Shown: positions 11,859 to 28,367 of the stretch, one piece after another
How the letters are laid out: every line of letters begins with the position of its first letter
How positions within the stretch are numbered: position 1 is the first letter of the stretch
Assembly (NCBI GenBank): GCA_949283305.1
Contig: CASDRU010000006.1
Location: 124,001-188,000 of the forward strand
DNA from: an uncultured Spirochaetales bacterium
Lineage (GTDB): Bacteria; Spirochaetota; Spirochaetia; Sphaerochaetales; Sphaerochaetaceae
Direction of reading: 5' to 3'
Length of the DNA: 64,000 bases
The notes under the pieces: generated by a model
What the model saw: the letters and a program-made list of their open reading frames with translations, nothing else
What the model was told of the DNA's origin: nothing
The model's database searches: none
Position numbers and translations under genes: made by a program

Positions 11859-12158
11859 ATGAACAGCGAGTTTCTTACAGAAGAAAAGCTAAGAGGAATA
11901 GTAAAAATTGAGAACATGATGAGCGGGAAAGTTTATCTCATGAGCTCAGAGGATATAGTAAAATCATATTCCTCTCTTCGCTTTTCACTTGATATGGGGA
12001 CATTTTCAAACAAGGATCTCCAGGATGATTATGACAAAACAGGTCTTGAGCTTTTCAATATCGAAAAGGATGTGATTGCCACTAAAAATGAAGACCTTTC
12101 TCTTCTTCTTGAGAAAAGAAAGGCCTATTACAGAGAAAACAGCAAGGAGCTCTACTAG
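11859..12158 (+). CDS. Degenerate GIY-YIG nuclease-like protein (99 aa)
   Basis: The layout follows GIY-YIG domains: a strand GIVKIEN, a hairpin SGKVYLMSS, a helix, the [12 protein letters not shown] segment and a final helix with E85 at the catalytic glutamate position. The catalytic marks are eroded: GIY reads G13-I-V, YIG reads Y26-L-M, and the arginine after the second motif is serine. It is therefore probably a nucleic-acid-binding relative rather than an active nuclease (inference). I chose ATG at 11859 because the upstream 29 codons have no family match and TATAAT lies just before. The end overlaps the convergent udp gene by four bases. Confidence 0.6.
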
Positions 12159-12934
12159 ATTTCCTTATCCATCTTTATGAGGTTCTTCACAGCTTCCACA
12201 GCAACACGTATTGCATTGTCTGTGTCATGCATCTTTATATTCTCCATTCCAAGTGCTTCCCTCTCCTGGTTTCCTACTACAAAGAATGTTGCGCCGCATC
12301 TTGCACCAAGATGAGCACAGCATGTGAAGATTGCAGCACTCTCCATTTCAGATGCAAGAACCCCAAGGCGTTTCCATGCTTCCCATTTTTCAAGAAGCAT
12401 TGCAGAAACCGGCATCTTCTCGGGCTCATGCTGACCATAGAAGCTATCCTTGCACTGCACGACTCCCGTGTGGCTTCTCATTTTTAGGTCATCTGCTGCT
12501 TTTTTCAGCGCTAATACAACTTCAAAAGTAGCGACTGCAGGATACTCAATCGGAGCATATTCACGGCTTGTGCCCTCAGCGCGCACCGCACCTGTAGCAA
12601 TCACAACATCCCCGCCTTTTACATCAAGAGAAATTCCCCCTGATGTTCCCATGCGGATGAATGTATCGCTGCCGCACTTGTATAGCTCCTCAACAGCGAT
12701 TGAAGCGCTGGGACCTCCTATTCCAGTACTTACTACACTTACTTTTTCTCCAAGAAGTGTTCCTGTATATGTAACGTATTCACGACTGTCTGCGACAAGA
12801 GATGCATCATCAAGATACTTTGCAATAAGAGGCACTCTCTTAGGATCTCCGGGAAGAATGACATAGCGCCCGACATCCCCTTTCTTGATATGCAGATGAT
12901 ACTGCACCCCGCTTCCATTCATATAATCTGACAT
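12155..12934 (-). CDS. udp: Uridine phosphorylase
   Basis: Phosphorolyses uridine to uracil and ribose-1-phosphate. The 259-aa protein matches the Udp branch of the PNP/UDP family: LPGDPKRVP phosphate loop, [32 protein letters not shown] region and the [10 protein letters not shown] ribose-binding block. ATG at 12934 has GGAGG in the preceding bases. A TTGAAG-17-TAGACT promoter overlaps the tail of the pilus operon. With the uracil phosphoribosyltransferase at 39.3 kb it would form a uridine-to-UMP salvage route. Confidence 0.92.
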
Positions 12935-12954: not shown

Positions 12955-12983
12955 AGTCTAACATCAGCTTGTTTTGACTTCAA
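12955..12983 (-). promoter_or_regulatory. Promoter of udp
   Basis: Minus-strand TTGAAG (12983-12978), a 17-base spacer and TAGACT (12960-12955), about 20 nt upstream of the udp start. It overlaps the final codons of the last pilin-like gene, so udp may also receive read-through from the pilus operon, as no strong hairpin separates them. Confidence 0.55.
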
Positions 12984-13593
12984 CAAAAATGTACCCAGTA
13001 TAAGATCCTGTAAGGAATCTATAATCCTGCCCGGTTATTTCTACATCAACTATAATATCCCCATATGGGATTGTAAGAGTCATATCAAAGTGCACGGTTT
13101 CACTAAATGGTTTATAAACATCTAAAGATTTATTTTCTACAAGGCTCATTGTTCTTGAAACAAGCTCAATGCTTTCATTAGATTTGTTTTGTACAACGCT
13201 TATTTCTTTATCTATATCTTTTGATTCAGACGTTGCTTTTACGCTGTAATTCAGTCCCTCTGGTCCATACAGCATATAACCATTATCATACTCATCTTCA
13301 GATGTAACAAAATAGACTTTAATTGAGCATGATACATCATCCAATGTTTCTTTATATAGCTCCCATGAAAGATCGAACTCAGCTTTTTTCGTTTCATTCT
13401 CCCCCTCGCCGCTAGATGCAGAGAAAGTGACAATATTGCTTCCCGGCTGTATATTGCTCGGTTTCAATTCAATATTTGATGATCCATGCTTGAAGAACTT
13501 TATGTTAAATGACTTTGAATCCTTTTCTACTGCAGACAAACAGAACATAATGGAAATTGATATGATTGCTATTATGAATATTCTTTTCTTCAT
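12964..13593 (-). CDS. Pilin-like secreted subunit 13 (last gene of chaperone-usher operon)
   Basis: A 209-aa secreted protein: KK then a hydrophobic signal core ending near LSAVEKD, and a beta-rich mature part. The C-terminus (SYTGYIFVEVKTS) fits the family end-strand pattern G-x-Y-[TS]-x-x-[IV]-x-V. It starts with a four-base overlap on the preceding subunit. I assign it to the pilin-like set by position, signal peptide and end motif; overall identity to its neighbours is low. It is the promoter-distal gene, which in a polar operon would be least expressed. Confidence 0.72.
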   Translation of the reverse strand: MKKRIFIIAIISISIMFCLSAVEKDSKSFNIKFFKHGSSNIELKPSNIQPGSNIVTFSASSGEGENETKKAEFDLSWELYKETLDDVSCSIKVYFVTSEDEYDNGYMLYGPEGLNYSVKATSESKDIDKEISVVQNKSNESIELVSRTMSLVENKSLDVYKPFSETVHFDMTLTIPYGDIIVDVEITGQDYRFLTGSYTGYIFVEVKTS

Positions 13594-14159
13594 TGAGAAT
13601 CCTCGATTGTGATTTGTATGCTTGTTTTATACGTCTTTCCTGCTTGAACATCATTACCTTCTACATAGAAACTACCTGAAAATGAATATACACGCGGATA
13701 TTTATAGATATCACTTCCAGTATATAGATTGCTTTCATCGATCACCACAACTCCTTCGTTAGGAAAATTCTCAGAGCCAGTAAAGCTTTTTTTACTTGGG
13801 AAATCCATGTTTCTTGTGTAGTAATCAACAGTATGATCAGATCCATCATTAAATGGGGGTGCTCCTGAGATTGTTACTGTTATCGGACTTGTAGTAAAAG
13901 CCTGTACATAAAAGAAGAATATATCAGTATAGTACTGGTTTGTAGAAAGGTCATATTTGAAAACCAGTGGATTAGTGCCCGAATTTTCAATGCTGTCTTC
14001 TGGAGCAAAAATACTGTTTACTTTTGAAGATGAAAAACCATATCTTACAGATTTCGGCGTTACTTCAAGCTCAACAGGAATATAGTAATAGTCCAGCTGT
14101 TCAGAAAAAATAGGAATAAGAATGAAAAGCATCAAAATAAAACAGAATATCTTTCTCAT
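13590..14159 (-). CDS. Pilin-like secreted subunit 12
   Basis: A 189-aa exported protein with a signal peptide ending around PIFSEQ, then mostly beta-strand sequence. It has the set's central motif (FFYVQAFTTSPITVTISGAPPF, compare YFFYQIISG in subunit 7) and the end-strand KTYKTSIQITIEDSQ. Four-base overlaps on both sides imply coupled translation. No cysteine is apparent in the mature chain, so there is no disulfide of the kind seen in many classical pilins. Confidence 0.72.
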   Translation of the reverse strand: MRKIFCFILMLFILIPIFSEQLDYYYIPVELEVTPKSVRYGFSSSKVNSIFAPEDSIENSGTNPLVFKYDLSTNQYYTDIFFFYVQAFTTSPITVTISGAPPFNDGSDHTVDYYTRNMDFPSKKSFTGSENFPNEGVVVIDESNLYTGSDIYKYPRVYSFSGSFYVEGNDVQAGKTYKTSIQITIEDSQ

Positions 14160-14767
14160 TGTTTATTCTCCAACTTCAATCTAAAAGTACTTATATATTT
14201 TTCTGCACTTGCATTAGCCACACTATCTGGAAGAGATGCTGTTATACCAAGAGAACCCCATTTTAATCCACTATTTTCATGATAAGTATAAATTGTATAT
14301 GTCTTCTCATCGCTGTCAACAGGGACACTGCTGCCATTTGGAAAGGCTGAAAGCTGTTCTTCAGTAAGACTGTTTCCACTGTGGTTCTTACTGAATGAAA
14401 GAACTATTGGAAGTTTTCCATTAACTGAGCTAAAAGGAGAGACAGTAAGAGTAAGTTCAACACTTTCATTGCTTATAATCTTCCACCAGAAATAAATAGT
14501 CTTTGGTTGTCTATCGCCTGTGATGTTAGAATTTTCATCTATTGAGAAATCTGATGAGAAAACAGTGTTTTCAGTACTGATTTCTGGAGCAGTTGCCGTC
14601 TCACTAGATAACAGGCCATTTGAGAAGCCAAAGGCATAATATGAAATATCTGAGCTGAGGCTGAAGTAGAGCACTGGCGTTTCTAAAGTAGCTGAGGAAA
14701 TGATAAATGCAGGAAAAAGTAAAACTAACAACAATATTATAAATTTTCTCATATCAAACCTCTTCAC
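14156..14767 (-). CDS. Pilin-like secreted subunit 11
   Basis: A 203-aa exported protein with a long signal peptide (basic KRFDMRK, then a hydrophobic core ending near ISSATLE). The mature part carries the shared motif FWWKIISNESVELTLTVSP and ends with YISTFRLKLENKQ, a variant of the family end-strand. Overlaps of four bases join it to both neighbours. The N-terminal segment after the signal (TPVLYFSLSSD) is a candidate donor strand, by analogy with chaperone-usher pilins. Confidence 0.72.
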   Translation of the reverse strand: MKRFDMRKFIILLLVLLFPAFIISSATLETPVLYFSLSSDISYYAFGFSNGLLSSETATAPEISTENTVFSSDFSIDENSNITGDRQPKTIYFWWKIISNESVELTLTVSPFSSVNGKLPIVLSFSKNHSGNSLTEEQLSAFPNGSSVPVDSDEKTYTIYTYHENSGLKWGSLGITASLPDSVANASAEKYISTFRLKLENKQ

Positions 14768-15339
14768 TCCTGCACAATCGTTACAATAATCTGAGCTGTA
14801 TATTTTCCAGAACCGGAAAGTAAGGCATCAGAAAGCTTTTCAGTCTCTACATAAAGAGTATATTTGCCGCTATATCTCTTAATACCTGATCCTTCTACTT
14901 TACTTATTTTTATTATGATAGGATCTTTTGAAACTGTTGCATCATACCCGCCGGATGATGTTGTATCACTGCCGATAGCAACTTTCCATCCAATAGCATC
15001 ATTTTCTGCTTTATGAAGATCTCCATTTATGCTGAACTGTATTTCAGGTGCGCTGAAAGCCTCGATATAATAATGAAAATCAACGCTTCCTGTTCCAGAA
15101 GATTTTTCAGAAAGTCCTCCATCAGAAGAAAGATTCAATACATAATTTGAATTACTATAATCCGACGAGCTGTTTACATCAGTAAACCAGAATTTTGCAT
15201 TTCCATAATTAGACAAATCCCATGTAAGGCTGACACTTGCAGTACTGTTGCTATCCAAAGTGGTTCCATAAAAACTTGTTGCAGCAAAAACATGTGAAGA
15301 AGATAAGACAATAAGCAGAATAATTAACAGTCTTCTCAC
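14764..15339 (-). CDS. Pilin-like secreted subunit 10
   Basis: A 191-aa exported protein; the signal peptide ends near SHVFAATS. The mature chain is Ser/Thr/Asn-rich beta sequence with a central DFHYYIEAFSAPEIQFSI motif and the end-strand GKYTAQIIVTIVQE, one of the clearest matches to the family pattern. It overlaps subunits 9 and 11 by four bases each. Confidence 0.74.
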   Translation of the reverse strand: MRRLLIILLIVLSSSHVFAATSFYGTTLDSNSTASVSLTWDLSNYGNAKFWFTDVNSSSDYSNSNYVLNLSSDGGLSEKSSGTGSVDFHYYIEAFSAPEIQFSINGDLHKAENDAIGWKVAIGSDTTSSGGYDATVSKDPIIIKISKVEGSGIKRYSGKYTLYVETEKLSDALLSGSGKYTAQIIVTIVQE

Positions 15340-15863
15340 TGATTACCTCCTTCATTTTTAATTGTTACAGTCAAGGTTCCAAGATGCAAAGACTGATTTG
15401 CTAAAGAAATTGATGATACCGGTATATCAATATCTATTCCAATTGTTTCAAAGCCAGAATCATTGCCGCTACCAGCATTATATCTGTGAATTACAGAAGA
15501 CTGAGAAAGTGTCTTATCACCTGCTTTAACAGTAACTCCTCCGTTAATAATACTACTATTAAAAGACATAGATACTTTTTGATTCTGATCCGAAACAATA
15601 AACCATCTTACATATAACAAAGCATCATTTGAATATTTTATATTGCCATTCTCAATCTTAGAATCTTTTATGGAATATGTAGAGCCTGGATTAGTAAGAA
15701 CAGAAGGGGTTGTTGAGAAAGCGACATTCGCAATATTCATATCTTCAAGATTCCAGGACACTGTAGCACTTGCGCTTGCCTCCCCAAGCTTTCCAGAAAA
15801 ATTATCTGCAAAGAGAAATGCAGTGATAAAAGATAAAAGAAATATGAGAATAATCTTTTTCAT
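15336..15863 (-). CDS. Pilin-like secreted subunit 9
   Basis: At 175 aa the shortest member. Its signal peptide ends near AFLFADN. The motif YVRWFIVSDQNQKVSMSF is present and the C-terminal strand is LHLGTLTVTIKNEGG, which keeps the alternating hydrophobic pattern but lacks the G-x-Y start. It lies one base after subunit 8 and overlaps subunit 10 by four bases. Confidence 0.7.
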   Translation of the reverse strand: MKKIILIFLLSFITAFLFADNFSGKLGEASASATVSWNLEDMNIANVAFSTTPSVLTNPGSTYSIKDSKIENGNIKYSNDALLYVRWFIVSDQNQKVSMSFNSSIINGGVTVKAGDKTLSQSSVIHRYNAGSGNDSGFETIGIDIDIPVSSISLANQSLHLGTLTVTIKNEGGNQ

Positions 15864-15864
15864 A

Positions 15865-16428
15865 TCAATCTCCTGCAGTCACCTTTAGAGTGAATGTCGC
15901 TTCATATAGTCCTGAAGTGACAGTATTATCAATTTCTGCTGATACAGCAAAGCCCAAACTTCCTACGGTAAGCAGACCTTTGTTTTTTGTATTGAATACA
16001 GTTGCTGAATTACCTTCAACAGCATTTACTGGAGCAAGAGCAGAACCGTTTCCATATGATTCGCCAATTGAGAGAATCAGAGGAATGGATTTATTTTTAT
16101 CTGATCTGTTTATAAAATCAGACCATGAAAGAGTTCCTGTACAATTTTTATTATTGATTATCTTCCAGAAAACATATTGAGTACTGCTCTCTATTCTGAA
16201 AGTGCCATCTTGATTGTCAGGAATCTCATCAAGGCGGAAAGATGATACAGGTTTTATAGCTTCATTTTCTCCAATTGCATCATCATAATTCTCAACTTTT
16301 GAGCTTACAAAACCAAAACTTGCACTCTCAAGGCCAGACAAATCCAGCTGCAGAGTTAAATCTGCAGAAAAAGCTGGAAAAACTGCTATTATGAAAATGC
16401 AAGCAAGTATTGTAAGTCTCTTAGTCAT
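15865..16428 (-). CDS. Pilin-like secreted subunit 8
   Basis: A 187-aa exported protein (signal peptide ending near FPAFSADL). The mature chain has the family motif YVFWKIINNKNCTGTLSW and the end-strand GLYEATFTLKVTAGD. One cysteine occurs in the mature chain. The gene is seven bases after subunit 7 and one base before subunit 9. Confidence 0.74.
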   Translation of the reverse strand: MTKRLTILACIFIIAVFPAFSADLTLQLDLSGLESASFGFVSSKVENYDDAIGENEAIKPVSSFRLDEIPDNQDGTFRIESSTQYVFWKIINNKNCTGTLSWSDFINRSDKNKSIPLILSIGESYGNGSALAPVNAVEGNSATVFNTKNKGLLTVGSLGFAVSAEIDNTVTSGLYEATFTLKVTAGD

Positions 16429-16435
16429 ATCATCC

Positions 16436-17029
16436 TCAAGTCTGATCAGCTAAAATATTAACTTTAATTGTTCCTGTATATGTTCCTGGAACAAGAGAAG
16501 TAATATCACTTGTTTCTACAGTCAGCTCAATTGCTTTAGCTGAGCTTACTGTTGCGCCATTTGCAGTCGGGTCATGAGAAAACACTTTTGTTTTTCCATT
16601 AGTCTTTCCTTCCACTGTGATATCAGTTCCTGTAACTGTATATTCAAGAGCGGGATTATCACCATTCTTCATCGGAGATGCTGAAAGAGTAATTTTATAC
16701 TTGTTTCCAGAAATTATCTGATAGAAAAAATACAATGTGCTATCAGTATTTTTTGCTGTAACAGCAGTATCTGTTTTATTTATCTTAAGATCTACAGATT
16801 GTACAGCATTTCCTGGCTTTGATGTTACATTAAATTCTCCATCTGGAATTGAAGATGCAAAACCGAAATTAAAATATTCATCATTACCATCACCACTGCC
16901 AGACAGATTTAAAACAACACTTGTTGTTGCATCAATATCTTTTGCATTGGAAATACCATTAGGAGCTGCTGCAAAAATAAGACCTGAGAATAAAAGAATC
17001 AAAGCAATGAACAAGAATTTCTTTTTCAT
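16436..17029 (-). CDS. Pilin-like secreted subunit 7
   Basis: A 197-aa exported protein (signal peptide ending near GLIFAAAP). It is the most typical member of the set: the N-terminal VVLNLSG and FGFASS stretches, the YFFYQIISGNKYKITLSASP motif, and the end-strand GTYTGTIKVNI. It is closest to subunit 6, sharing the DATT, NFGF and SDVT-type stretches, so the pair may be a recent duplication. Confidence 0.76.
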   Translation of the reverse strand: MKKKFLFIALILLFSGLIFAAAPNGISNAKDIDATTSVVLNLSGSGDGNDEYFNFGFASSIPDGEFNVTSKPGNAVQSVDLKINKTDTAVTAKNTDSTLYFFYQIISGNKYKITLSASPMKNGDNPALEYTVTGTDITVEGKTNGKTKVFSHDPTANGATVSSAKAIELTVETSDITSLVPGTYTGTIKVNILADQT

Positions 17030-17043
17030 ATGTCCATCCTTAA

Positions 17044-17667
17044 TTAACTACCTGATTTAGTTGTAAGTACTAATGTACCTTTATATTTACCCTGAGTCAG
17101 GGCACTTACATCCTCTGTTTTGATTGTAAGCTTATGACTGAAGAGCACCTGAATTGGGTCTGTAGCTTTATGATCGACAAGTAATGTTGAACCAGTATTT
17201 CCATCTGATGTATCAGAAGAAATAGTAACATCGGAGACTGGATCATCTTTATCAACAGTTACAGACCAATTCAGAGTAGGAGTACCCGTACCAGCTGATT
17301 CAGCTGTCATTGGCTCATTTATCTTCAAAGTCAATGTAAAAGGTGTTCCTGTAACAGCCTGACAGAAAACATATAGAGCATCTTCAGTTTCTCCTGCTAC
17401 AGCATTTGATGCTGTGACTTTGCCCTTCACAGATGTATCTAAAGAAAGTTTAACTTCAGATTTTCCATTTTCAATTTTTGGTGTGATAGCTGTGACATCA
17501 GAACCAGTGAAACCAAAATTGACATACTTGCTGTTTTCATCAGAATTTTCGGAAAAATCCAGAATTGCATCAGTAGTTGCATCTGTTCCTATTGCTATAG
17601 AAATTGCATCTGCAAAAATGATAAAAGATGTAAGTAATAAAATAGATAAAATCAGTAATTTTTTCAT
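17044..17667 (-). CDS. Pilin-like secreted subunit 6
   Basis: A 207-aa exported protein (signal peptide ending near FIIFADAI). After cleavage, the stretch DATTDAILDFS parallels subunit 7. The central motif is YVFCQAVTGTPFTLTLKI and the end-strand GKYKGTLVLTTKSG. The C-terminal strand of this family resembles that of archaic pilins and the spore-coat-U fold. It lies one base after subunit 5 and 14 bases before subunit 7. Confidence 0.76.
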   Translation of the reverse strand: MKKLLILSILLLTSFIIFADAISIAIGTDATTDAILDFSENSDENSKYVNFGFTGSDVTAITPKIENGKSEVKLSLDTSVKGKVTASNAVAGETEDALYVFCQAVTGTPFTLTLKINEPMTAESAGTGTPTLNWSVTVDKDDPVSDVTISSDTSDGNTGSTLLVDHKATDPIQVLFSHKLTIKTEDVSALTQGKYKGTLVLTTKSGS

Positions 17668-17668
17668 A

Positions 17669-18220
17669 TCAGTTCCCCTTAGCTGTAAGTTTCAAAACAA
17701 CGTTAGCACTATATGTTCCTGGTATTTTATCTGTCAAATCTCCTGTCCAGATAGCAAGCTTGATGCTTCCTGCTGTGGATGTCGTTGTTGCATCATGAAC
17801 AGAGTCCTTGTCAATAGAGACATTACTTTCTCCATATTTTGGTGTAGAGCTGCTTGATTCAGCATTCTCTGCAACATACCAGTCTATTGTATTTGAGTCG
17901 CCAAATTTCAGAGCAGTATCTAGATAGATATCAAGATCATATGCTTTACCGCTTAAAATCTTGTAATATGCATAAATATCTTTTGCATTGTATGCATAAT
18001 ACTTATTTTCTCTAAGACTAAGAGTATAAGGAGTAGTAATTGCTTCTGCCACACCTGTCATGGAAGAAACCTCATTTGACGAAAAGCCTATCTCAATGCT
18101 TTCTACATCTCCATCTTCTCCTCCAATCTTAAGATTAACTTCAAGTTCCTTTTGCTCAACAGAAAAACATATTCCTGATACAAGAATCATGATAAATAAA
18201 ACAAAAGCAATCTTCTTCAT
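17669..18220 (-). CDS. Pilin-like secreted subunit 5
   Basis: A 183-aa exported protein with a signal peptide ending near GICFSVEQ. The mature chain has the IEIGFSSNEV stretch, the YAYYKILSGKAYDLDIYL motif and the end-strand GTYSANVVLKLTAKGN. It overlaps subunit 4 by four bases. Confidence 0.75.
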   Translation of the reverse strand: MKKIAFVLFIMILVSGICFSVEQKELEVNLKIGGEDGDVESIEIGFSSNEVSSMTGVAEAITTPYTLSLRENKYYAYNAKDIYAYYKILSGKAYDLDIYLDTALKFGDSNTIDWYVAENAESSSSTPKYGESNVSIDKDSVHDATTTSTAGSIKLAIWTGDLTDKIPGTYSANVVLKLTAKGN

Positions 18221-18780
18221 TTCAAGTCCTCCATTTCAAGTAAGATTGTCGCACTGTATTCTCCAGGATACAAAAATGGCGCATCCTCAATATCCAAAAC
18301 CATTTTCAGAACCTGCTTCCCGTTCACAGGACCGGACGGCATGATTCTGAGTATTACCTCATCACTATTCAAAATAGAGACTTCGACATTATCATCGTAT
18401 AGATCCGCACTCTCAAATGATGTTGTGAAATCCATTTCATAAGGAGAATTTTCTGAAGAGAATTTCTTAACACTCTCTTTCTTTATTCTCACGTTATAAT
18501 CACTTGAGAGATTGCCATAATAAAGGAAGTTAATTGTTGTCTCCTTTGACAAATCTTCAAGAGATCCAAGATATAAATCACCATTTTCAATTAAAGACGC
18601 ACTTTCTGTCTCAAGATTAAGTTCAAGAACAAGATGGTCAAGATTGACAGCATCATCAGGCATATTCACGCCCCAGTCTTCCGGAACTGTAACATTGATA
18701 TTAAGTGCTTTATCGTCTGTTGCTGCAGAAAGATTGAAAACTGATAAAAATACAAATAGAACAAATATAAATCTTTTCAT
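18217..18780 (-). CDS. Pilin-like secreted subunit 4
   Basis: A 187-aa exported protein with a signal peptide ending near FNLSAATD. The central motif is weaker (NFLYYGNLSSDYNVRI), but the end-strand GEYSATILLEMEDLK fits the family. It begins nine bases after the 479-aa two-domain protein, the only sizeable junction besides that between subunits 6 and 7 in this part of the operon. Confidence 0.74.
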   Translation of the reverse strand: MKRFIFVLFVFLSVFNLSAATDDKALNINVTVPEDWGVNMPDDAVNLDHLVLELNLETESASLIENGDLYLGSLEDLSKETTINFLYYGNLSSDYNVRIKKESVKKFSSENSPYEMDFTTSFESADLYDDNVEVSILNSDEVILRIMPSGPVNGKQVLKMVLDIEDAPFLYPGEYSATILLEMEDLK

Positions 18781-18789
18781 CCAATCCTC

Positions 18790-20229
18790 CTAAAAGTCTC
18801 CGACAACATGAACATATATTCTTCCTGTATAACGGCCATCCATCATCATTCTTGTCTCAATATTCTGATCAATCTTCACATATACTTCTCCGCTCCAGGC
18901 ATAATATACTCTAGGTTTATTTCCAATAATATCATTAATTGTTCCATATGCCTTATAGATATCAGGCTGAACCTGGTCTGCATCCGTGCCGTCGTGATGG
19001 GTTATCTTTGAGCTGTATCGGTCAGAAACATATTCATCGCCACTGAAAATCTGCTGAACAGGATTTGAATCTGTTCCAACAACAATATCCACGGTTTCTC
19101 GGTTATATAAGTTTCTCCCCTCCTTCGCATATGTAATGACTTCAAAAGATGCACTGTTGTAGTTTGTCAGTACAGAACCAGGAATTACAGAAGTATGAAC
19201 AAGATTGAATCCATCCTCCTCGCTTCTGAGCGGTGCGTTGCTTGCCGAAAAGAAAATCTTGATGTTTGTAGGTTTACGTGCACTCCTCAAAGCTGCCTCC
19301 AGAGCTTCTATTGACTCCTGTTCATTACCTTGTGTCGCATTACCACTGCCATCAGTTATTGTTGAATCCATGATAAAATCTATTGTTGCAACCTTGACTT
19401 CTTTTCCTGCATCCCTGTTCATGTTCAGATTAGATGCATTGCTTGTCGTTGAGACAGAAAGGGATACAAAATTCTCTGCTGGTGTGGAGGAGGAAGAATA
19501 ATAGCCGGAAATAGGAATTGAGATATCATTCTTCTTATCTCCCTGCTCCATGGAAATGGATATTACTGCAACATAATCATCTGCTTGCTTGAGCGAATAT
19601 ATTTCTCCGTTATCAAGCTCAAGAGTTCCTGTGTTGGTGACTGTACCCGGAAGCACAAGAATCAGATCAAACCAGATTGTGATATCTTTGTGATACATAT
19701 TATAAAATGGTTTAGTAGAATCTAACTCATCAATTAAACTTTGAAACAGTTCATTATCAAGCTTGAAACTCTGTGTGTTCTGGTCAAATACATGATAGAA
19801 TTTAAAATCTGCAGCTCCAGGTTCACTATCTTTTGTAACACTGCCAACTAATATAAGCTTGAAAGGCCTATTGTACTCAGGATTGCTCTGAGAAATGAAG
19901 TTATAGCCATAAGGGGCTGTTATTGTGATGTTAAGTGGATTTAGAATTTCAGTTCTTTCTCGTAAACTATGATAGCCTCTTTTTATATCTCCATTTTTTT
20001 CGCTCATATGCTCAACAGAACCGATGGCTATCATCTGCTTTACTGAATAATCTTTATCTTGACCAAAAACAGGTGCATCTGTCTGATTATCACCTTTATA
20101 GTCACGATAATCAGCTGCAGCCATGTTGATATTAGCATATCCTCCGTATGGACTTATTCTCAAATAATCTGCAGCAAAAAGAGAAAGAGATAAAACTGAA
20201 ACAATAATTAACATCAAAATCTTCTTCAT
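18790..20229 (-). CDS. Two-domain pilin-like protein, candidate tip adhesin (479 aa)
   Basis: More than twice the length of the other subunits. A signal peptide (ending near LSLFAADY) is followed by a first domain to about residue 235, whose last strand is VAVISISMEQGD, and a second domain from about 250 ending with GRYTGRIYVHVVGDF. A receptor-binding domain joined to a pilin domain is the usual layout of tip adhesins in chaperone-usher pili, so I propose that role (inference). It starts one base into the stop of subunit 2. No cysteines or known lectin motifs are visible. Confidence 0.7.
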   Translation of the reverse strand: MKKILMLIIVSVLSLSLFAADYLRISPYGGYANINMAAADYRDYKGDNQTDAPVFGQDKDYSVKQMIAIGSVEHMSEKNGDIKRGYHSLRERTEILNPLNITITAPYGYNFISQSNPEYNRPFKLILVGSVTKDSEPGAADFKFYHVFDQNTQSFKLDNELFQSLIDELDSTKPFYNMYHKDITIWFDLILVLPGTVTNTGTLELDNGEIYSLKQADDYVAVISISMEQGDKKNDISIPISGYYSSSSTPAENFVSLSVSTTSNASNLNMNRDAGKEVKVATIDFIMDSTITDGSGNATQGNEQESIEALEAALRSARKPTNIKIFFSASNAPLRSEEDGFNLVHTSVIPGSVLTNYNSASFEVITYAKEGRNLYNRETVDIVVGTDSNPVQQIFSGDEYVSDRYSSKITHHDGTDADQVQPDIYKAYGTINDIIGNKPRVYYAWSGEVYVKIDQNIETRMMMDGRYTGRIYVHVVGDF

Positions 20230-20885
20230 CAGTTAGCCTCCCCTTCTGCTGTAATTGTTATAGTCACCCTTGCCTCATAATTTCCTTCAGGTACTCTTTC
20301 ATTATTTACTTCTTTGTAAGAGGTAATTGTATCAGTTGAATCCTGAGTGAACATGAAGTAAATATCGCCATTGAGATTTCCAATAAATGAATTGCTCTGC
20401 AAAGGGCTGTCAAATATGAACTTGTTATTCTCTACTTTTCCACCTGCAAGAGTTCCGCCTGAAAGATTCGTTGTATACGTGAACTCGCCGCTTTCTGTTC
20501 TGCTTATATCAGATGAATCTATAAAGCTCATGTCATATGTGAATGTAAGAATATAATCCAGATATGCATTGATATATGCTGTATCAACATGATGAAGCCT
20601 TTCAGCTTCTATGCTCAGGCTGAAAGCTGTGTTTGCAAGAACACTCCAGTGTGCGATTATTCTTCCATCCTGAGTAGATGAATATCTAACATAATCCTCC
20701 TCGATATTGAAAGGCATACCGATAAGGAAGAATTCTGTCTGAGATGCAATCGGTGTAACAGATACATCAAGAGCATCATCAACTCCTGCCTGGATGTCAA
20801 AGCCTTTTGTCTGCAGAGACTTAGTTTCTGAAAAAAGTGATGTGGAAATGAAGAATAATAAAATCAATAAAAGTATTTTTTTCAT
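20229..20885 (-). CDS. Pilin-like secreted subunit 2
   Basis: A 218-aa exported protein (signal peptide ending near TSLFSETK). The mature chain opens with a DIQAGVDDALDVSVTP stretch and ends with GNYEARVTITITAEG, a clear family end-strand. The central part is longer than in subunits 4-13. It overlaps subunit 1 by four bases and the tip-adhesin candidate by one base. Position next to the usher could mean a basal or major subunit, but the sequence does not decide this. Confidence 0.73.
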   Translation of the reverse strand: MKKILLLILLFFISTSLFSETKSLQTKGFDIQAGVDDALDVSVTPIASQTEFFLIGMPFNIEEDYVRYSSTQDGRIIAHWSVLANTAFSLSIEAERLHHVDTAYINAYLDYILTFTYDMSFIDSSDISRTESGEFTYTTNLSGGTLAGGKVENNKFIFDSPLQSNSFIGNLNGDIYFMFTQDSTDTITSYKEVNNERVPEGNYEARVTITITAEGEAN

Positions 20886-21541
20886 ATATTACTCTCCAGT
20901 TTTACAGTACACTGAGCCTTATAAGTCCCATTGGGAGCATTTTTATAATCCGGTGTTGATATATTCACAGCAACAGCGCCATATGCTATCCATCTATGTG
21001 AAGAACTTCCCTGCCTAACAGTCCATGATGCAGACATATCGTTAGTAGGATTTTCTGAAGGTTTTGGATTGATTAAACTACCACTTTGCTCTATTTTTGC
21101 TCCATCCTCTGATACGTTGTTATTAAGATCAGGGAAAACATAGCTTGTGTTGCCGATATTGTAATATGCACGTATTACATTATTTTCATCTTTCACATCA
21201 TTTGTATAAAGATAGAAAGGAGATATACTGATGCTTATTTTATAGGTATTAGTTGTACCTGGATCTTCATTACCCCATATTCGGTATGAGAACACAGTAT
21301 GTTCTGCAAAATCAGCAATGACTGTTGTTGTCTGTCCAAGAAGATTGTTTAAGATTGAGGAAACATCCATTTCAGAATTATTTTCTACAGGCTTGAGATC
21401 TACTATCGATTCAATAACAACTTTAAATTCATTCTCTTTTTTCAGTTTATAAGCTTCGATATCAAAACTGGCTGTGCTGGCAGCAGCAAGAGTGAATACA
21501 GACAGTGCGGCTGAAAGTATGGTCAAGAGCACTTTCTTCAT
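20882..21541 (-). CDS. Pilin-like secreted subunit 1 (adjacent to usher)
   Basis: A 219-aa exported protein (signal peptide ending near TLAAASTA). The mature chain contains a Tyr-rich YKISISISPFYLYT segment matching the central motif position and ends with GTYKAQCTVKLESNI. It begins within the last codon of the usher (four-base overlap), showing tight translational linkage between assembly machinery and subunits. Confidence 0.74.
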   Translation of the reverse strand: MKKVLLTILSAALSVFTLAAASTASFDIEAYKLKKENEFKVVIESIVDLKPVENNSEMDVSSILNNLLGQTTTVIADFAEHTVFSYRIWGNEDPGTTNTYKISISISPFYLYTNDVKDENNVIRAYYNIGNTSYVFPDLNNNVSEDGAKIEQSGSLINPKPSENPTNDMSASWTVRQGSSSHRWIAYGAVAVNISTPDYKNAPNGTYKAQCTVKLESNI

Positions 21542-24500
21542 ACTGCCTCCTTATTAAAGTCAGGATAGAGGAATGAGAAGAACTCATCGCTTGTGAACCT
21601 CTCTCCGTCTTCGTAGCTGTATACTGCTGAGTATATGTCTGAGAAAACTGATTCTTCAGATATCTCTGCATCCTCAAGCATGTTTATATAGCCGTAGTAG
21701 TAATCATCACCGCTGACTGTGAATGTATAGAGATACCACTCATCATTATCATCGACATCAAATGCATATGTTCCACTGCTGAGCTCACTTACTGTAAAGC
21801 GTCCTGAAGAGTCTGTGAAGAGATAATTGTCGCTGCTGATAAGCTCTGTATTTCCCTCCTCATCTTTTACAACTGAATACAGCGGGCTTGATGCGTTTAT
21901 CCAGAGCTCTCCTGACGGCTTTTCAACAACGCCAGAGAGAGTGAATGTCAAATCTGCATCCAGTCTTAATACATAGCCGCGTCTTGAGCTTTCAGGAATG
22001 TTTACAGCCACGCTCTTTGATGAGTAATATCCATCCTCAGATGAGCTGTAGACCATAAGTGAGTCTCCATAGCTGGAGAGGTCTGTGTATATTCCTGTAT
22101 TGAAAAGAGTCGGAAGCTCAGAAAGGCTGCTGTTGCCCATCTGTCCGACAAAAAGGTCATTGCCCTGAAGTGCTCCCTTCTGCTTTACAAGAATATAGTT
22201 GGAAGGAATGCTTCCTGTGAAGGCAAAGAGACCGTCAGCAAATACGGATGCACTTGAGAGAGACAGCGAAAGCGCAACTCGATCAAAGCTCATGTCTGTA
22301 TTAAGTGAGGATGAGAGTGAGACATACTTTCCGCTATATGAGTAGTTTGCTCCAAGTGAGTATGATGCAAGCTTGTCAAAGTCTCCCCAGTTGCTTACTG
22401 ATGCGCTCACATTATGCCTTCCGCTGTAGTATGAGTAGTTGGCACTTGCGCTCTTTGCGTCAGTTGATGCATTGATGCTGTTTCTTCCAAAGCGTAGCGA
22501 TGCAGTAATCCTTCCATTTGCACTGGATATTCCACTCTTGTTCACACCCATTGAAAGGGAAAGCGAGAGATAGAAATTGCTTGTGAGCCTGAATGAGGAA
22601 GAGAAACTCTCGCTGAGCGTGAAGGTCTCAAAGTCAGGAATACCGCTCTGGATGAATGAAGAGAGAGACCAGCTCATTATTCCATAGCCTCCACCTATTC
22701 CAAGAGAAAGACTTGCACTGTGTCCCTCTTTTACTGACCATATAGTCGGAGAGTAATAGTAGTTTACAGAAAGATTTACTGACGAAAGAGCCTTCAGCCC
22801 TGTAGAAAATCCCTGCCCGAAGCGCAGTGTGAGGCTTGGCGGGGCAAGCTCATCATCTTTCTCACTCAGGCGGAGCGACATGTTGTAGCGCGCAGTTCCT
22901 GCCCTGTTGGCATGAAGAAGCTCTGCAGAAAGTGCACCCTTGAGATTGAGTGGATTATTCTTTTCAGGAGTATTTGAAAGGGCAAATGTCATATCAAGTG
23001 TTGCCCTTTCAGTTATTCCGCTTCTGAAATGAAGCGATGCAGAGAGGTTTCTTATATCATAGTCATAGCGCACAGAGTTCCACATCGGGATTGAAAGGAC
23101 TATATCATCCTTTTCTGAGCCGACAGAGCTTTTAATCCTTCCTGTTGAGAGGGCGGCTGAGAAATAAGTCTCACCCTTTGCAAGAAGTGATGATGAATAA
23201 AGCACATCCATTGTGATCTCCACAGGCTCTGAGCCATCAAGAGGAGAAATCCTTATAAGTATGTCATTTGCTCCGCTGTAGAGCACGAAATCCCTTAACC
23301 GGTATATTCCAGGAGAGAGCGTTCTTCTGAAGATTTCATTGTTCTCAAGTCCTCCTGCGTTGTTGTAGATTGCAACATCGCTGGTCTTATCGACAACAAT
23401 GACCTGCTCATAGTAGTTTCTGCTGTAGCCGTTCCTTCCGGCATAGGAGGGGCTTGTCTCAACACGGATTCCAAGAGCAGTTCCTTTTGCACTCAGAAAA
23501 TCAGTTGAAACATTTCCCCAGCTTATTCTCATCATCTTTTCAGGGATATCGTAATAGGATGAATAGGATCCGAATGCGAAATCGAAATCCTTATCCTGAT
23601 AACCCATGCTGTATGAGAATGTGCCGTAGACATCATAAAGTCTCCATGAGTTTGTGACACCGAGCGAGAGCCTTGTTCCCTTTAAGAGGTTGTCGATGTC
23701 TGTAATATCGCTGTTGCTTGCCCTGAGGCTGTAACGACTGGAGAGAGTGAATGCTGCTGGAGCAAGCGTTATACCGTCATTGATAGTTCGTCTTTGATAG
23801 CGCGATGAGCTTCCTCTGACGCTTATTATCTGAACAGGCATGTCCTCAGGTGAGAAATAGAGGTCAACCCTGTATTCATCTACATCAAAGGAATTGTCAA
23901 CTCCTATGGATGAGAAGAATTCAAGAGGTATGTATCCTCCCTCATATGAGAGGACTCTCTTATAAGATTCATCTGTAAGAAGATCGGCAAGATATGCTTC
24001 AAGCATGTTCTTAGAAAGACTGATATCTCCAGAAAGGCTTACTACCTCTATGTTTCCTGTATATGTGTCATTCACATAGAGATCCATGTAATATGTGCCG
24101 TCCAGAAGCTCAAGCGAGTCGACACCAGCAATATAGAAGTCTGCAAAGTAGCCGCTTAATTCATAAGAGACCTCATCTGTGAGAATCTGGCTTTCAACAA
24201 AAATGTCTGCAGGAGAAGGAACTGCTATTTCCTCAATCTCTTTCTCCTTGACTGAAAGGCTTGCCTTTTCTGGAACCTTCACAAGGCTTAAATTGCTTTC
24301 AGAGTGCTCAAATGAAGGAGCAGATGGAACAGAAATTTCAGCAAGGGAGGAATCTTCAACGTTTACATCTGGAGAAGAAGGAATCTCTCTTATGCTTACA
24401 TATACAGTATCAAGGACAGCATCCTCCTCCTTTGTTTCTTTTTCAATGATTGTTTCTTCCTCAATCTCAGGAGGAAGCATCTCTTCTACATCTTCTGCTT

Positions 24501-25002
24501 CCAAAATTGCTGTCTCGGTTTTCTCCTTTTCCTTCTCTTTCACACCGGGATTGAAGATGAAAATGAGAATGAGGAATAAAAGAATCACAAGAAGAACTAC
24601 AAGTATGATGATATCAGTCTCCCCTGCTGTTTTTCCTCCAGATCTGTCAAAGGCAAAGAAGACTGCTCTGGAGATAACCAAAGCTGCAGAGAGAGATAAA
24701 AGAATGTCGCGATGGGCAGAAAAGAGGGCAAGAAGAGCAAAGAGGACGAGAGAGGTGAGAAGATATGTTACAAAGAACTCTCTCCTTCTTTCTTCCTTTT
24801 CTCCCCCTTTTTCATTAACCAGAGCATGAACTGCCTCTGCAAAGAGGATTATAAACAGTAAATCTAAAAGAAGCGGGGATATGAAGGAGGAGAAATCAGG
24901 GGCTCTCAGCAATGACACAAAGTCCATGACAAAGAACGCCATGGATAGGACCAGAAGAATAAGTGATATTACTAAAAGAGTATATCTCCTCCCCTTTTTC
25001 AC
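21538..25002 (-). CDS. Outer-membrane usher with an N-terminal five-helix inner-membrane anchor (1154 aa)
   Basis: Usher features: an N-terminal chaperone-binding-like domain (about 297-395, with YVNDTYTG and GGYIPLEFF); a long Ser/Tyr-rich alternating beta region (about 412-1000); a plug-like block resembling usher sequence (RTLSPGIYRLRDF, then YSGANDILIRI); the strand VLYSSSLLAKGETYFSAAL; and a C-terminal carboxypeptidase-like domain with IPESSRRGYVLRL and SSGRFTVSELSSGTY. Unlike any usher I know, it lacks a cleavable signal. Instead it has five hydrophobic helices (about 8-30, 41-62, 76-95, 100-118, 129-150) and a 120-residue Glu/Pro/Val linker. A basic N-terminus inside plus five helices places the usher part in the periplasm. 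The start is GTG at 25002 with GGGGGAG upstream. Confidence 0.85.
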   Translation of the reverse strand: MKKGRRYTLLVISLILLVLSMAFFVMDFVSLLRAPDFSSFISPLLLDLLFIILFAEAVHALVNEKGGEKEERRREFFVTYLLTSLVLFALLALFSAHRDILLSLSAALVISRAVFFAFDRSGGKTAGETDIIILVVLLVILLFLILIFIFNPGVKEKEKEKTETAILEAEDVEEMLPPEIEEETIIEKETKEEDAVLDTVYVSIREIPSSPDVNVEDSSLAEISVPSAPSFEHSESNLSLVKVPEKASLSVKEKEIEEIAVPSPADIFVESQILTDEVSYELSGYFADFYIAGVDSLELLDGTYYMDLYVNDTYTGNIEVVSLSGDISLSKNMLEAYLADLLTDESYKRVLSYEGGYIPLEFFSSIGVDNSFDVDEYRVDLYFSPEDMPVQIISVRGSSSRYQRRTINDGITLAPAAFTLSSRYSLRASNSDITDIDNLLKGTRLSLGVTNSWRLYDVYGTFSYSMGYQDKDFDFAFGSYSSYYDIPEKMMRISWGNVSTDFLSAKGTALGIRVETSPSYAGRNGYSRNYYEQVIVVDKTSDVAIYNNAGGLENNEIFRRTLSPGIYRLRDFVLYSGANDILIRISPLDGSEPVEITMDVLYSSSLLAKGETYFSAALSTGRIKSSVGSEKDDIVLSIPMWNSVRYDYDIRNLSASLHFRSGITERATLDMTFALSNTPEKNNPLNLKGALSAELLHANRAGTARYNMSLRLSEKDDELAPPSLTLRFGQGFSTGLKALSSVNLSVNYYYSPTIWSVKEGHSASLSLGIGGGYGIMSWSLSSFIQSGIPDFETFTLSESFSSSFRLTSNFYLSLSLSMGVNKSGISSANGRITASLRFGRNSINASTDAKSASANYSYYSGRHNVSASVSNWGDFDKLASYSLGANYSYSGKYVSLSSSLNTDMSFDRVALSLSLSSASVFADGLFAFTGSIPSNYILVKQKGALQGNDLFVGQMGNSSLSELPTLFNTGIYTDLSSYGDSLMVYSSSEDGYYSSKSVAVNIPESSRRGYVLRLDADLTFTLSGVVEKPSGELWINASSPLYSVVKDEEGNTELISSDNYLFTDSSGRFTVSELSSGTYAFDVDDNDEWYLYTFTVSGDDYYYGYINMLEDAEISEESVFSDIYSAVYSYEDGERFTSDEFFSFLYPDFNKEAV

Positions 25003-25021
25003 TTTCTCCCCCTATATCTCC

Positions 25022-25756
25022 TTATCTGGAATATGAATAGTCGTAAGAGACAGATGCCTCTAGATTATCTGCACTCAGAAGTTCAGAAGGTGCATTTTCT
25101 GTCCTTACAATGACTTTGGAGTTTGTTAAAAGGGAAATTCCTGATATTGCCTCAAGCTCTTCCTCTGTGAATGTATAGCTTGCACCGTTTTCAGATGTGA
25201 CAGCAACTTCAAGTGAGTTTAAAAGCTGATGCACGCTTCCTGTATTCTCTATTGTAACACTAAGCTTTCCATCTTCATCAATCTCTGCAGTGCTTGTAAC
25301 AGATTCAATTACGCGCGAAGGGCGCACATATGCGCTTGTTGAGTATACAAAGAGGAAAGAAATCATCTGACCTGAGTCAGGAACCTGAGCGCCTACAGAA
25401 TAAGGAATCTGCTCAGAAATGATCCTGAAGCTCTGCTCTTCAGTAAGAGTACTCGGACCGCGGTACTGCACACGCACAAGCTGAGTGCTCTGCGGACGGA
25501 TTATCATCTTGCTGGGCTGGATAGAAAAATATGCAGAAGCATCTTCATTATACTCTTCACCGTTTATGTCGATATTCCTCTTTACGGCAGAAATCTCAAT
25601 GGCAATCGGTGAATCCGAGTCATTTACTATTGTGTATATTTTCTGGCTATCCGGTCCGCTTGAATCATAAGTTGCATTAAGCGGAGACAGCTGATATGAA
25701 TAGGCAGCAGACAGACAGAAAACAACGAGACAAAGTAAAATCGCTAGTCGTTTCAT
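25022..25756 (-). CDS. PapD-like periplasmic pilus chaperone
   Basis: A 244-aa exported chaperone, first gene of the pilus operon. A signal peptide (ending near SAAYSYQ) precedes an Ig-like domain with the family signature FSIQPSKMIIRP, then STQLVRV (residues 77-96), and the edge-strand motif FRIISEQIPY (110-119), the pattern of archaic-type fimbrial chaperones. A second beta domain follows from about residue 130. Such proteins complete the fold of subunits by donor-strand complementation and hand them to the usher. I prefer ATG at 25756, with GGAG nine bases upstream, to the longer frame at 25786, whose extra residues would spoil the signal peptide. Confidence 0.88.
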   Translation of the reverse strand: MKRLAILLCLVVFCLSAAYSYQLSPLNATYDSSGPDSQKIYTIVNDSDSPIAIEISAVKRNIDINGEEYNEDASAYFSIQPSKMIIRPQSTQLVRVQYRGPSTLTEEQSFRIISEQIPYSVGAQVPDSGQMISFLFVYSTSAYVRPSRVIESVTSTAEIDEDGKLSVTIENTGSVHQLLNSLEVAVTSENGASYTFTEEELEAISGISLLTNSKVIVRTENAPSELLSADNLEASVSYDYSYSR

Positions 25757-25818
25757 AAAAAATAACTCCATAAGAAAAAGAAGCATCCCAACTCTTCTTT
25801 CTCAATTTCCCTGAAGTA

Positions 25819-25847
25819 ATTCTAAAAGCAGTATTAACCATTGTCAA
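25819..25847 (-). promoter_or_regulatory. Sigma70-type promoter of the chaperone-usher operon
   Basis: Minus-strand TTGACA (25847-25842), spacer of exactly 17 bases, and TAGAAT (25824-25819). This is a perfect -35 and a five-of-six -10. The start site would fall near 25812, giving a leader of about 55 nt before the chaperone ATG. It is the only strong promoter seen upstream of the 15-gene operon. Confidence 0.8.
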
Positions 25848-26010: not shown

Positions 26011-28350
26011 TTATATATCAAGATCAAGAGCAACGTAGGTCTTTCCCATTCCTCCGTCCTCCGGACGCGCAAAGTAATATGAAGAGACATGGGGATTCTT
26101 CTTCAGCTCTTCATGAAGACCTCTCATGAGTATTCCGTCCCCAAAGCCGTGTATTATCGAGAATGTCGATACATTTGAATAGAGGGCAGCTTCTATCTGC
26201 TCATCAAGCCTTTCCTTTGCCTCTGCAAGGCTGAGTCCCCTGTAATCAACGACATAGGAAGCATTCTTCTTTTCTACAGCAAAGCTGACGCTTGTGCTCT
26301 TTTCCTGGTTTCTTCTTGTCAAGAGAGATGAGGAGAGCGTGAGCTTGAGTCCGTTTTCAAGTGCAATCTGATACTGGTTCTTCCTCACTTTCTTTATTAT
26401 CTTTCCCTTGCTTCTGCTCTCTCCGCAGAATACAGGCTCGCCTGGGGAGAATATTATCTCTTCTTCCGCCTCCTCCCTCTCTTTTCTCTTTTTCTCAACG
26501 CTTGATGAAACCTTTTCCTTCTCCTCATCAAGTGATGAGATGAAATCTTTGACGCTTTTTATCTTTTCTTTATCAAGCTCTCCTGTCCTTATTTCCATAA
26601 CAAGGCGCTCAAGCTTTCTCTTGATTTCATCAGTAAGCCTGTTCAGCTCCTTCAATCCCTCCTTTTCAAGGGAATAGGAAATATCATCATTTTCCTTTAT
26701 CTTCTTTTCCAGAGCCTCTTTCTTGAATTTCAGCGTTCTTCTTTCATTCTCTGCCTGGCTTATCTTCTTATCAAGACTCCTTGATTTTGAAATAAGCGAA
26801 TTGATCAGCGACACGCTTTCTGCACTGTTGTCTTTAAGCAGCTCCTCTGCTTTTTTGATTATCTCATTATTTATTCCTGCCCTGCGGGCTGCTGAAAGAG
26901 CATGGCTGTCTCCAGGAAGGCCTGCAATGATCTTATAAAGGCTAACTCCGCTTTTATCGTCAAATGCAAGGGATGCGTTTATTATATCCTCTGAGACATA
27001 TGCATAGTTCTTTACATCTGAGTAATGGCTGGAAATAAGAGTAAGACGGGCTTTTCTTTTCAGATATTCGAGCGTTGCAATGCTGAATGCAGAGCCCTCT
27101 TTCGGGTCCGTGCCGCTTCCCAGCTCATCAAGGAGCACAAGACAATTCTTGTCAGCCTTCTCTGTTATGTACCTTATGTTCTTCAGATGTGCTGAGAATG
27201 TGGATGCATCAGAAAGTATGTCCTGATTATCTCCGATGTCTGCAAGAAAGAATGAGAAAAGAGGAAGCTTCGATTTCCCGCTTGCAGGAATATATGTTGA
27301 AATCTGATTTATCGCAGCAAGAAGGGCTATTGTCTTCATGCTTACTGTCTTTCCTCCTGCATTGGCACCTGAAAAGACAATGGCCTTTGTTTTCTCCTCA
27401 AGTGTTATCGATATTGGAACAGCCTTTTCATATAAAAGAGGATGACGGGCCTCGATTAGAGAAAGCGTGTTTGAAATCTCGACATGCTCTGCCCTGTTCT
27501 TCTTTATCCAGAGACTGAATGTATAGAAGAAGTCAAAGGACTTTACTTCATCAACCTTCTTCTCAATGTATGGTGAAATATATCTCAGACGCTCAGAAAG
27601 CTCATGCTTTATTTTCATTATCTCAGCTCTGAGCCTGTCCTCAGCAAGAAAGACGCTGTTATTGAGATCAACCAGAGCAAAGGGCTCAGCATAAAGAGTC
27701 TGCCCAGATGATGAAGAGCTATGGATATAGCTTTTTATCTGGGCTTTCTTTTCAGCTCTGATTGGAATCAGGAGCCTCTGGTCACGGAATGATGGATTCT
27801 CGCTCATGACAAGCTCTGCATTCTCTTTCATGAAGGAAAGAGTATAGCGGCTTCTTTCATCCTTCTTCTTCTCTATTTCCTTAATAAGAGGATAAATCCT
27901 CGGATGAGAAAGATTGACTCCTCCCTGGCTGTCAAGGTATGAAAATACATCGCGCACAAAAAGCTCATCATTCTCATCAGGCGTAAATTCATCAGAAAGG
28001 AACCTCCTGCTTTTGAAATAGGATGATAGGAAGAGTGCAGCGCTGTAGATATCCGGGGCATCAATATCCTGATGGCTTATCCTGATGTTCCTCAGTATCG
28101 GAGAAACTGAGGGAAAAGGATCCAGATCGGCTTCTCCCCCTTCAAGGCGTGAAAGGAAGAACTCAAAGGAGGATCTTCTTTTCTCCAGCTCCTCTTTGTC
28201 TGCTGTAACGAGATCTGTGTTTATATAGCTTTCGCTTTCAGGAAAAAGCATGTTCTTCTTTACATCGTCAAGGACCTTGTCAATTTCAATAAGAATAAGT
28301 CCTTTTTTATCACTTCTGCCTTTCATAAATGACATGGAGGGGGAAACCAT
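26011..28350 (-). CDS. mutS2: MutS2, with an altered start after IscB insertion
   Basis: MutS2-family ATPase involved in recombination control or ribosome rescue. The core is intact: clamp helices, Walker A GANAGGKT, Walker B LVLLDELGSGTD, a charged coiled-coil, and a C-terminal Smr domain (VDYRGLSLAEAK, IIHGFGDG, with EDGGMGKT at the end). The open frame continues upstream to 28830, but that part is an out-of-frame reading of iscB. Possible starts are ATG at 28350, 28335 and 28326. The first forms TGATG with the iscB stop and has AGGA eight bases before it. Family members normally have an N-terminal helix near IEIDKVLDDV, so little if any native coding sequence appears lost. The element probably supplies the start. 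Confidence 0.88.
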   Translation of the reverse strand: MVSPSMSFMKGRSDKKGLILIEIDKVLDDVKKNMLFPESESYINTDLVTADKEELEKRRSSFEFFLSRLEGGEADLDPFPSVSPILRNIRISHQDIDAPDIYSAALFLSSYFKSRRFLSDEFTPDENDELFVRDVFSYLDSQGGVNLSHPRIYPLIKEIEKKKDERSRYTLSFMKENAELVMSENPSFRDQRLLIPIRAEKKAQIKSYIHSSSSSGQTLYAEPFALVDLNNSVFLAEDRLRAEIMKIKHELSERLRYISPYIEKKVDEVKSFDFFYTFSLWIKKNRAEHVEISNTLSLIEARHPLLYEKAVPISITLEEKTKAIVFSGANAGGKTVSMKTIALLAAINQISTYIPASGKSKLPLFSFFLADIGDNQDILSDASTFSAHLKNIRYITEKADKNCLVLLDELGSGTDPKEGSAFSIATLEYLKRKARLTLISSHYSDVKNYAYVSEDIINASLAFDDKSGVSLYKIIAGLPGDSHALSAARRAGINNEIIKKAEELLKDNSAESVSLINSLISKSRSLDKKISQAENERRTLKFKKEALEKKIKENDDISYSLEKEGLKELNRLTDEIKRKLERLVMEIRTGELDKEKIKSVKDFISSLDEEKEKVSSSVEKKRKEREEAEEEIIFSPGEPVFCGESRSKGKIIKKVRKNQYQIALENGLKLTLSSSLLTRRNQEKSTSVSFAVEKKNASYVVDYRGLSLAEAKERLDEQIEAALYSNVSTFSIIHGFGDGILMRGLHEELKKNPHVSSYYFARPEDGGMGKTYVALDLDI

Positions 28351-28367
28351 CAGGCTTGTCCTGATGG
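28347..28367 (-). repeat. Right-end palindrome of the IscB element
   Basis: A perfect 8-bp hairpin (CCATCAGG, loop CTTGT, CCTGATGG) that contains the iscB stop codon and the first mutS2 ATG. Such subterminal hairpins are the recognition structures of IS200/IS605 transposases. Confidence 0.7.

Follow-up and report, generated by a model that had tools for sequence, protein, structure and literature searches.

The window analysed here is a stretch of 64,000 nucleotides (contig 6, 124001-188000) from a genome of 1.49 Mb, 95.7% complete, of a Candidatus Ornithospirochaeta species. Its minus strand carries, at 12964-25756, 15 close-set genes encoding one PapD-like chaperone, one usher and 13 signal-peptide proteins, which very probably constitute a complete chaperone-usher (CU) fibre-assembly system of a non-classical, archaic-like kind whose usher is most likely anchored in the inner membrane. 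Adjacent open reading frames (ORFs) of the operon either share 1-4 bases or lie 1-19 bases apart, and the hydrophobic N-terminus used as the criterion for collecting subunits is present in all 13 small ORFs. The ORF list thereby agrees with the original prediction, made from this DNA alone, of 15 tightly packed genes on one strand with 13 signal-peptide proteins among them. The features are listed below from upstream to downstream; clusters come from single-linkage clustering of 234 array proteins taken from relatives and the window, and profile values are those of the tandem-family profile.

25819..25847, minus strand: promoter-like site TTGACA-N17-TAGAAT, 11/12 consensus matches, upstream of the chaperone gene
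25022..25756, minus strand: PapD-like periplasmic chaperone, 244 amino acids (aa), PF00345 match at 3e-7 and 30.9 bits (cut-off 23)
21538..25002, minus strand: usher, 1154 aa, GTG start, identified by hhalign to other spirochaete ushers, an AlphaFold model and FimD/PapC fold matches
Usher domains by residue: predicted inner-membrane helices ~3-150, acidic disordered linker ~151-290, N-terminal domain ~302-394, barrel and plug ~418-929, C-terminal domains ~937-1108
20882..21541, minus strand: subunit 1, 219 aa, conserved position, cluster of 31, all at position 1
20229..20885, minus strand: subunit 2, 218 aa, conserved position, cluster of 29, all at position 2
18790..20229, minus strand: subunit 3, 479 aa, candidate tip adhesin, cluster of 28, all at position 3
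18217..18780, minus strand: subunit 4, 187 aa, conserved position, cluster of 23, all at position 4
17669..18220, minus strand: tandem-family subunit, position 5, 101-member cluster, profile 9e-41
17044..17667, minus strand: tandem-family subunit, position 6, 101-member cluster, profile 1.6e-36
16436..17029, minus strand: tandem-family subunit, position 7, 101-member cluster, AlphaFold model with a mean predicted local distance difference test score (pLDDT) of 88
15865..16428, minus strand: tandem-family subunit, position 8, 101-member cluster, profile 8.8e-29
15336..15863, minus strand: divergent subunit, position 9, profile 2.6e-11
14764..15339, minus strand: divergent subunit, position 10, profile 5.5e-21
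14156..14767, minus strand: tandem-family subunit, position 11, 101-member cluster, profile 9e-26
13590..14159, minus strand: tandem-family subunit, position 12, 101-member cluster, profile 6.5e-24
12964..13593, minus strand: divergent last subunit, position 13, weak profile match (0.002), two relatives in other arrays

The start of the chaperone at 25756 follows the original prediction, while the longest ORF begins at 25786. As the chaperone-usher gene order was found again in dozens of genomes and four subunit clusters are each confined to a single position (1 to 4), the operon is no chance run of ORFs. The gene order, the homology of chaperone and usher, the usher fold, the pilin-like fold of one array protein and the conserved N-terminal helices and linker of the usher are all computed results.

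The chaperone exceeds the curated cut-off of the PapD_N profile (PF00345), bearing out the proposed PapD-like identity, and is the sole PapD_N match of the genome, which holds one chaperone and one usher. When aligned with 23 relatives and EcpB of E. coli, its residues Pro81 and Arg111 were invariant. According to a published comparison covering chaperones of the archaic and alternative kinds, no residue but the D1 proline (Pro59 in CsuC, Pro60 in EcpB) is invariant across the whole superfamily, and non-classical systems are marked by Arg89 of strand F1 (CsuC, EcpB) (PMC4654587). Pro81 is shared with all reference chaperones and Arg111 replaces the classical Arg/Lys pair, its mapping to Arg89 depending on EcpB as CsuC was not included in the alignment; two of the six archaic-type reference chaperones have no F1 Arg in the same alignment. 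The markers of the classical FimC/FimD type 1 system are absent, the strand-G1 Lys of FimC being Ser and the N-terminal Arg position near strand A1 being Asn or Ala. A PDB search with the chaperone profile returned EcpB only (0.014).

The usher was recognised through its relatives and through its fold. PF00577 (Usher) matched five of 24 relatives of the window usher (best 6.3e-6), and among the homologous ushers from other spirochaete families some pass the PF00577 cut-off (59.5 bits). The family usher profile aligned with these ushers at an hhalign probability of 100% (E 7e-63, 739 columns of the usher part), whereas the decoys BamA and LptD reached 0.1%. A direct link by single FimD or EcpC sequences was tried and gave weak matches, that of EcpC covering 51 columns, and hence the ushers of other spirochaetes were used as the bridge. 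The AlphaFold model, built with 64 aligned sequences, contains five helices, a disordered stretch at 151-294 (pLDDT <50) and, confidently predicted, the usher part, in which a large plugged beta-barrel lies between an N-terminal domain and C-terminal domains. Foldseek against PDB placed FimD or PapC chains at all of ranks 1-18 (E 1e-28 to 7e-14), with FimD as the top match and non-usher barrels beginning at 6e-6, and VIA-align scored ushers at Z 18-21 against <=16 for other barrels. The FimD/PapC matches were broadest across residues 298-1115. The proposed spirochaetal CU assembly system is thus upheld by the PapD_N and usher profile likeness and the FimD/PapC-type fold, although the proposed usher shows no PF00577 match of its own.

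Among known systems, the archaic (sigma) Csu system of Acinetobacter baumannii likewise has one chaperone, one usher and pilin-like subunits, and the chaperone Pro and F1 Arg markers are common to both (PMC4654587). The Csu layout of pilin, chaperone, usher and adhesin is matched by other spirochaete families (PMC9452303). Csu differs in having 4 subunits against 13 in the window, where the subunits contain few cysteines and the usher bears helices and a linker; the likely window equivalents of CsuC Tyr196 and Arg174 seem to be replaced, as judged from an alignment not containing CsuC. The chaperone of the alternative ECP system of E. coli (EcpB/EcpC) shares the Pro and Arg, at very low sequence similarity, and pilins of the CFA/I type, likewise from an alternative system, rank among the best fold matches of the modelled subunit. 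The closest loci outside Spirochaetota were those of Leptolyngbya (chaperone 32% identical to that of the window), Niveispirillum and Deinococcus plasmids, which differ in their usual-length ushers and compact operons; the nearest relatives there were records of Leptolyngbya, alphaproteobacteria, Vibrio and Deinococcus from a search of a plasmid collection, with chromosomes covered only for E. coli. In the trees the family formed one clade and the classical chaperones branched apart with 100/99 support, while the family's place among the non-classical chaperones is not settled, the branches being long. The archaic (Csu-like) style proposed earlier is therefore favoured by the Arg and Pro markers, by the cyanobacterial and alphaproteobacterial kin and by the compact layout of the operons in other spirochaetes; the trees, however, give no exact position.

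The usher was present in 104 of the 139 genomes of the family, which is probably the Sphaerochaetaceae of GTDB; the adjacency of chaperone and usher is conserved and the two genes are co-inherited. The nearest named relative is Candidatus Ornithospirochaeta avicola, a metagenome-assembled genome with a 97% identical chaperone (NCBI puts Candidatus Ornithospirochaeta in Spirochaetaceae incertae sedis), followed by Sphaerochaeta, Pleomorphochaeta, Candidatus Aphodenecus and other Spirochaetales. Two architectures were seen: in the window's genus-level group a subunit array follows the pair, and in Sphaerochaeta and further genera the pair stands by itself, lacking any neighbouring subunit. That the adjacent array is specific to the window's group goes beyond the original prediction. 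A V-type ATPase A gene lies at a near-constant 4.6-4.8 kb downstream of most stand-alone pairs (e.g. L035, L114 and L110) and 10.9 kb downstream of the pair in the window, past the array. In genomes with stand-alone pairs, pilin-like genes whose products end in AAVEGTYTGTVTFTYTAN-like strands lie at other places. Two clusters of such genes in Sphaerochaeta-type genomes (L217:13521-17280 and L220:13014-16700) adjoin a cassette of TonB-dependent receptor, ExbB, ExbD and TonB. One genome (G008) has both kinds of locus on different contigs (L033 and L034), and contig 20 of another (G061) has two same-strand chaperone genes (16674-17390 and 23542-24252) with about 6 kb between them. In a phylum-wide sample of 393 genomes the chaperone was found in 38, nine of them outside the family and spread across six other families. 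These other families (loci L172-L182) have compact Csu-type operons with ushers of 786-898 aa and a pilin-chaperone-usher-adhesin order, in which the last protein, of ~330 aa, has a tip-adhesin layout and in one case an SCPU domain (PF05229) above cut-off; no subunit of the window matched SCPU.

The array itself appears by sequence as four subunits conserved across the genus-level group, followed by a fast-diversifying tandem family which comprises most of the others. The position-confined clusters have 31, 29, 28 and 23 members, and the 101-member cluster extends over positions 4-12. The position-7 subunit is modelled as a beta-sandwich, and its best matches in the PDB were largely CU pilins (CFA/I, CS17, Csu, type 1/Fim and P/Pap), along with other fibre proteins such as the cannula protein CanA. 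These matches align mostly from residue ~46-52 on and leave the N-terminal (putative donor-strand) stretch outside the fold. Subunit 3 ends in DGRYTGRIYVHVVGDF, a pilin-like strand motif, and the position-13 subunit in TGSYTGYIFVEVKTS. One might argue that the small proteins are unrelated secreted proteins sharing the operon, with chaperone and usher serving few of them, given that positions 9, 10 and 13 are very divergent and that the Sphaerochaeta pair stands without adjacent subunits. This is highly improbable, as the tandem-family profile finds nine array members in the genome at E 9e-41 to 2e-6, with positions 1, 2 and 13 matched weakly (2e-4 to 2e-3), a loose C-terminal strand motif occurs in 215 of 234 subunits of the relatives against 262 of 812 other ORFs, and Sphaerochaeta does have pilin-like genes at a distance from the pair. 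The same profile gave no strong full-length match outside the array in the genome. At 130401-130805 of contig 18 of genome G000 lies a stretch that matches an array subunit in part and contains an in-frame TGA, possibly a decayed subunit outside the operon.

Another explanation concerns the product. Coat-like products, Caf1 for one, are known among CU systems, and the array proteins could form a surface layer or capsule-like coat of that kind instead of pili with tip adhesins, to which the many diverse subunits and the lack of any subunit that is demonstrably a tip adhesin would be suited. We consider a coat unlikely, since the large subunit is conserved in 28 loci and has the size of a two-domain tip protein, and since the last proteins of the compact operons in other spirochaetes are those of tip-adhesin layout described above. 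With pilus-like fibres as the preferred product, the 479-aa subunit 3 is a candidate tip adhesin by virtue of its size, and we infer its place at the tip along with donor-strand exchange, fibre formation and adhesion.

Several results weigh against the identification of a CU fibre system as a whole. The window usher alone had no convincing Pfam match, and the family usher profile retrieved no usher from the PDB sequences, the best hit (0.18) being among chance matches. The weak profile match of position 13 leaves its membership less certain. With a best Z of 7.0 the match to pilin folds is moderate, and comparable scores are reached by some unrelated beta-sandwiches; as the tool warns that Z <=7 may reflect a common arrangement, the weight is carried by the enrichment of pilins among the matches. 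An alternating-hydrophobic donor-strand pattern was as frequent at the N-termini (21%) as at internal control segments (22%). The small proteins, expected from the original prediction to be Ig-like folds lacking a strand, show a pilin-like fold in the one member modelled, and their donor-strand pattern is not distinctive.

The usher of this family differs in its N-terminus, a feature beyond the original prediction. All 64 aligned family ushers have 1-7 predicted N-terminal transmembrane helices, and behind these comes a linker of 104-435 residues with a high content of Glu and Asp and, in many cases, of Pro. Judged by sequence this combination appears unlike every usher compared outside the family. 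One helix is found in genera outside the window's group and mostly three or five, up to seven, within it. The counts are mostly odd (1, 3, 5, 7), and with a cytoplasmic N-terminus an odd number would place the linker on the periplasmic side. The same CU system could also operate with an usher N-terminus that is a long cleaved targeting signal, the mature usher being an ordinary outer-membrane protein with a disordered tail. Spirochaete signal peptides are sometimes atypical, ushers elsewhere have cleaved signals, and a small-x-Ala site lies near the end of the hydrophobic core in 13 of the 32 single-helix ushers. This explanation is possible though doubtful: in these 32 ushers the uncharged run has a median of 22 against 16-17 in the signal peptides of chaperones and subunits from the same genomes, the hydrophobicity is 2.71 against about 2.18, and the small-x-Ala site is less frequent than in the chaperones (24/24). 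Several helices are moreover present in the window usher, whose model shows five, and in its group, unlike any plain signal peptide, and the acidic linker is present throughout the family. Of 11 ushers from other spirochaete families, 9 have an ordinary signal-peptide look. Based on these longer and more hydrophobic segments with fewer cleavage sites, we infer that the N-terminus is most likely uncleaved and anchors the usher in the inner membrane.

Some observations tell against this anchor. A few family ushers have even helix counts (2 or 6), probably through missed helices; some carry a Cys shortly after the helix, and in these members the segment may be a lipoprotein signal or the anchor may be cleaved; and the helices of the usher model have low confidence (pLDDT about 50-65). 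From the helix block and the long acidic linker the usher most likely spans the periplasm, and we lean towards a single polypeptide across the whole envelope, with inner-membrane helices, periplasm-crossing acidic linker and outer-membrane pilus pore, as the general form in the family. TonB likewise combines an inner-membrane helix with a periplasm-spanning linker, which in the ushers is acidic and often proline-rich; the likeness is one of analogy, no homology being found or claimed, and the linker of the usher differs in leading into an outer-membrane barrel. In the mechanism proposed, the thirteen secreted subunits would cross the inner membrane via Sec and be held in the periplasm by the single PapD-like chaperone, and the one usher, anchored by its N-terminus in the inner membrane with its pore in the outer membrane, would thread them into surface fibres through donor-strand exchange. 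The tether may hold the pore above the export site or pass on chaperone-subunit complexes.

The promoter-like site, located in the intergenic gap that precedes the first gene of the operon, has the same sequence in the sister species L052 but was not seen in two more distant relatives aligned at the same place. The promoter proposed for the operon is present as a site, though matches to such a consensus are frequent in the window stretch (53 observed against 42.5 expected). Scanning the operon for repeated and invertible elements revealed only short, weak direct repeats and neither inverted repeats nor long homopolymers; there is thus no sign of phase variation. NCBIfam gave nothing over cut-off for the window proteins. 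Two neighbouring genes are as follows.

12155-12934: phosphorylase-family gene (PF01048), 29 bases past the end of the array and followed by V-type ATPase genes
28350-29609, minus strand: IscB-like protein with RRXRR and HNH, 419 aa (PF14239, 208 bits), between rsgA and mutS2

The IscB-like gene looks like an insertion as rsgA and mutS2 are directly adjacent in L052.

No study of spirochaete CU systems was found among the open-access papers searched, a search in which a subscription paper could be missed. The present analysis extends CU assembly to spirochaetes, where it is apparently a long-kept trait of the whole family (104/139 genomes). The system should be testable, since it is present in Sphaerochaeta halotolerans (locus L114), which is a named species whose strain genome has been deposited. 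Usher secretion is usually pictured as an outer-membrane process fed by diffusing chaperone-subunit complexes, and the tethered usher, if true, would be a physically coupled variant of pilus secretion. The diversifying subunit array in this gut genus suggests a surface structure on which diversifying pressure acts.

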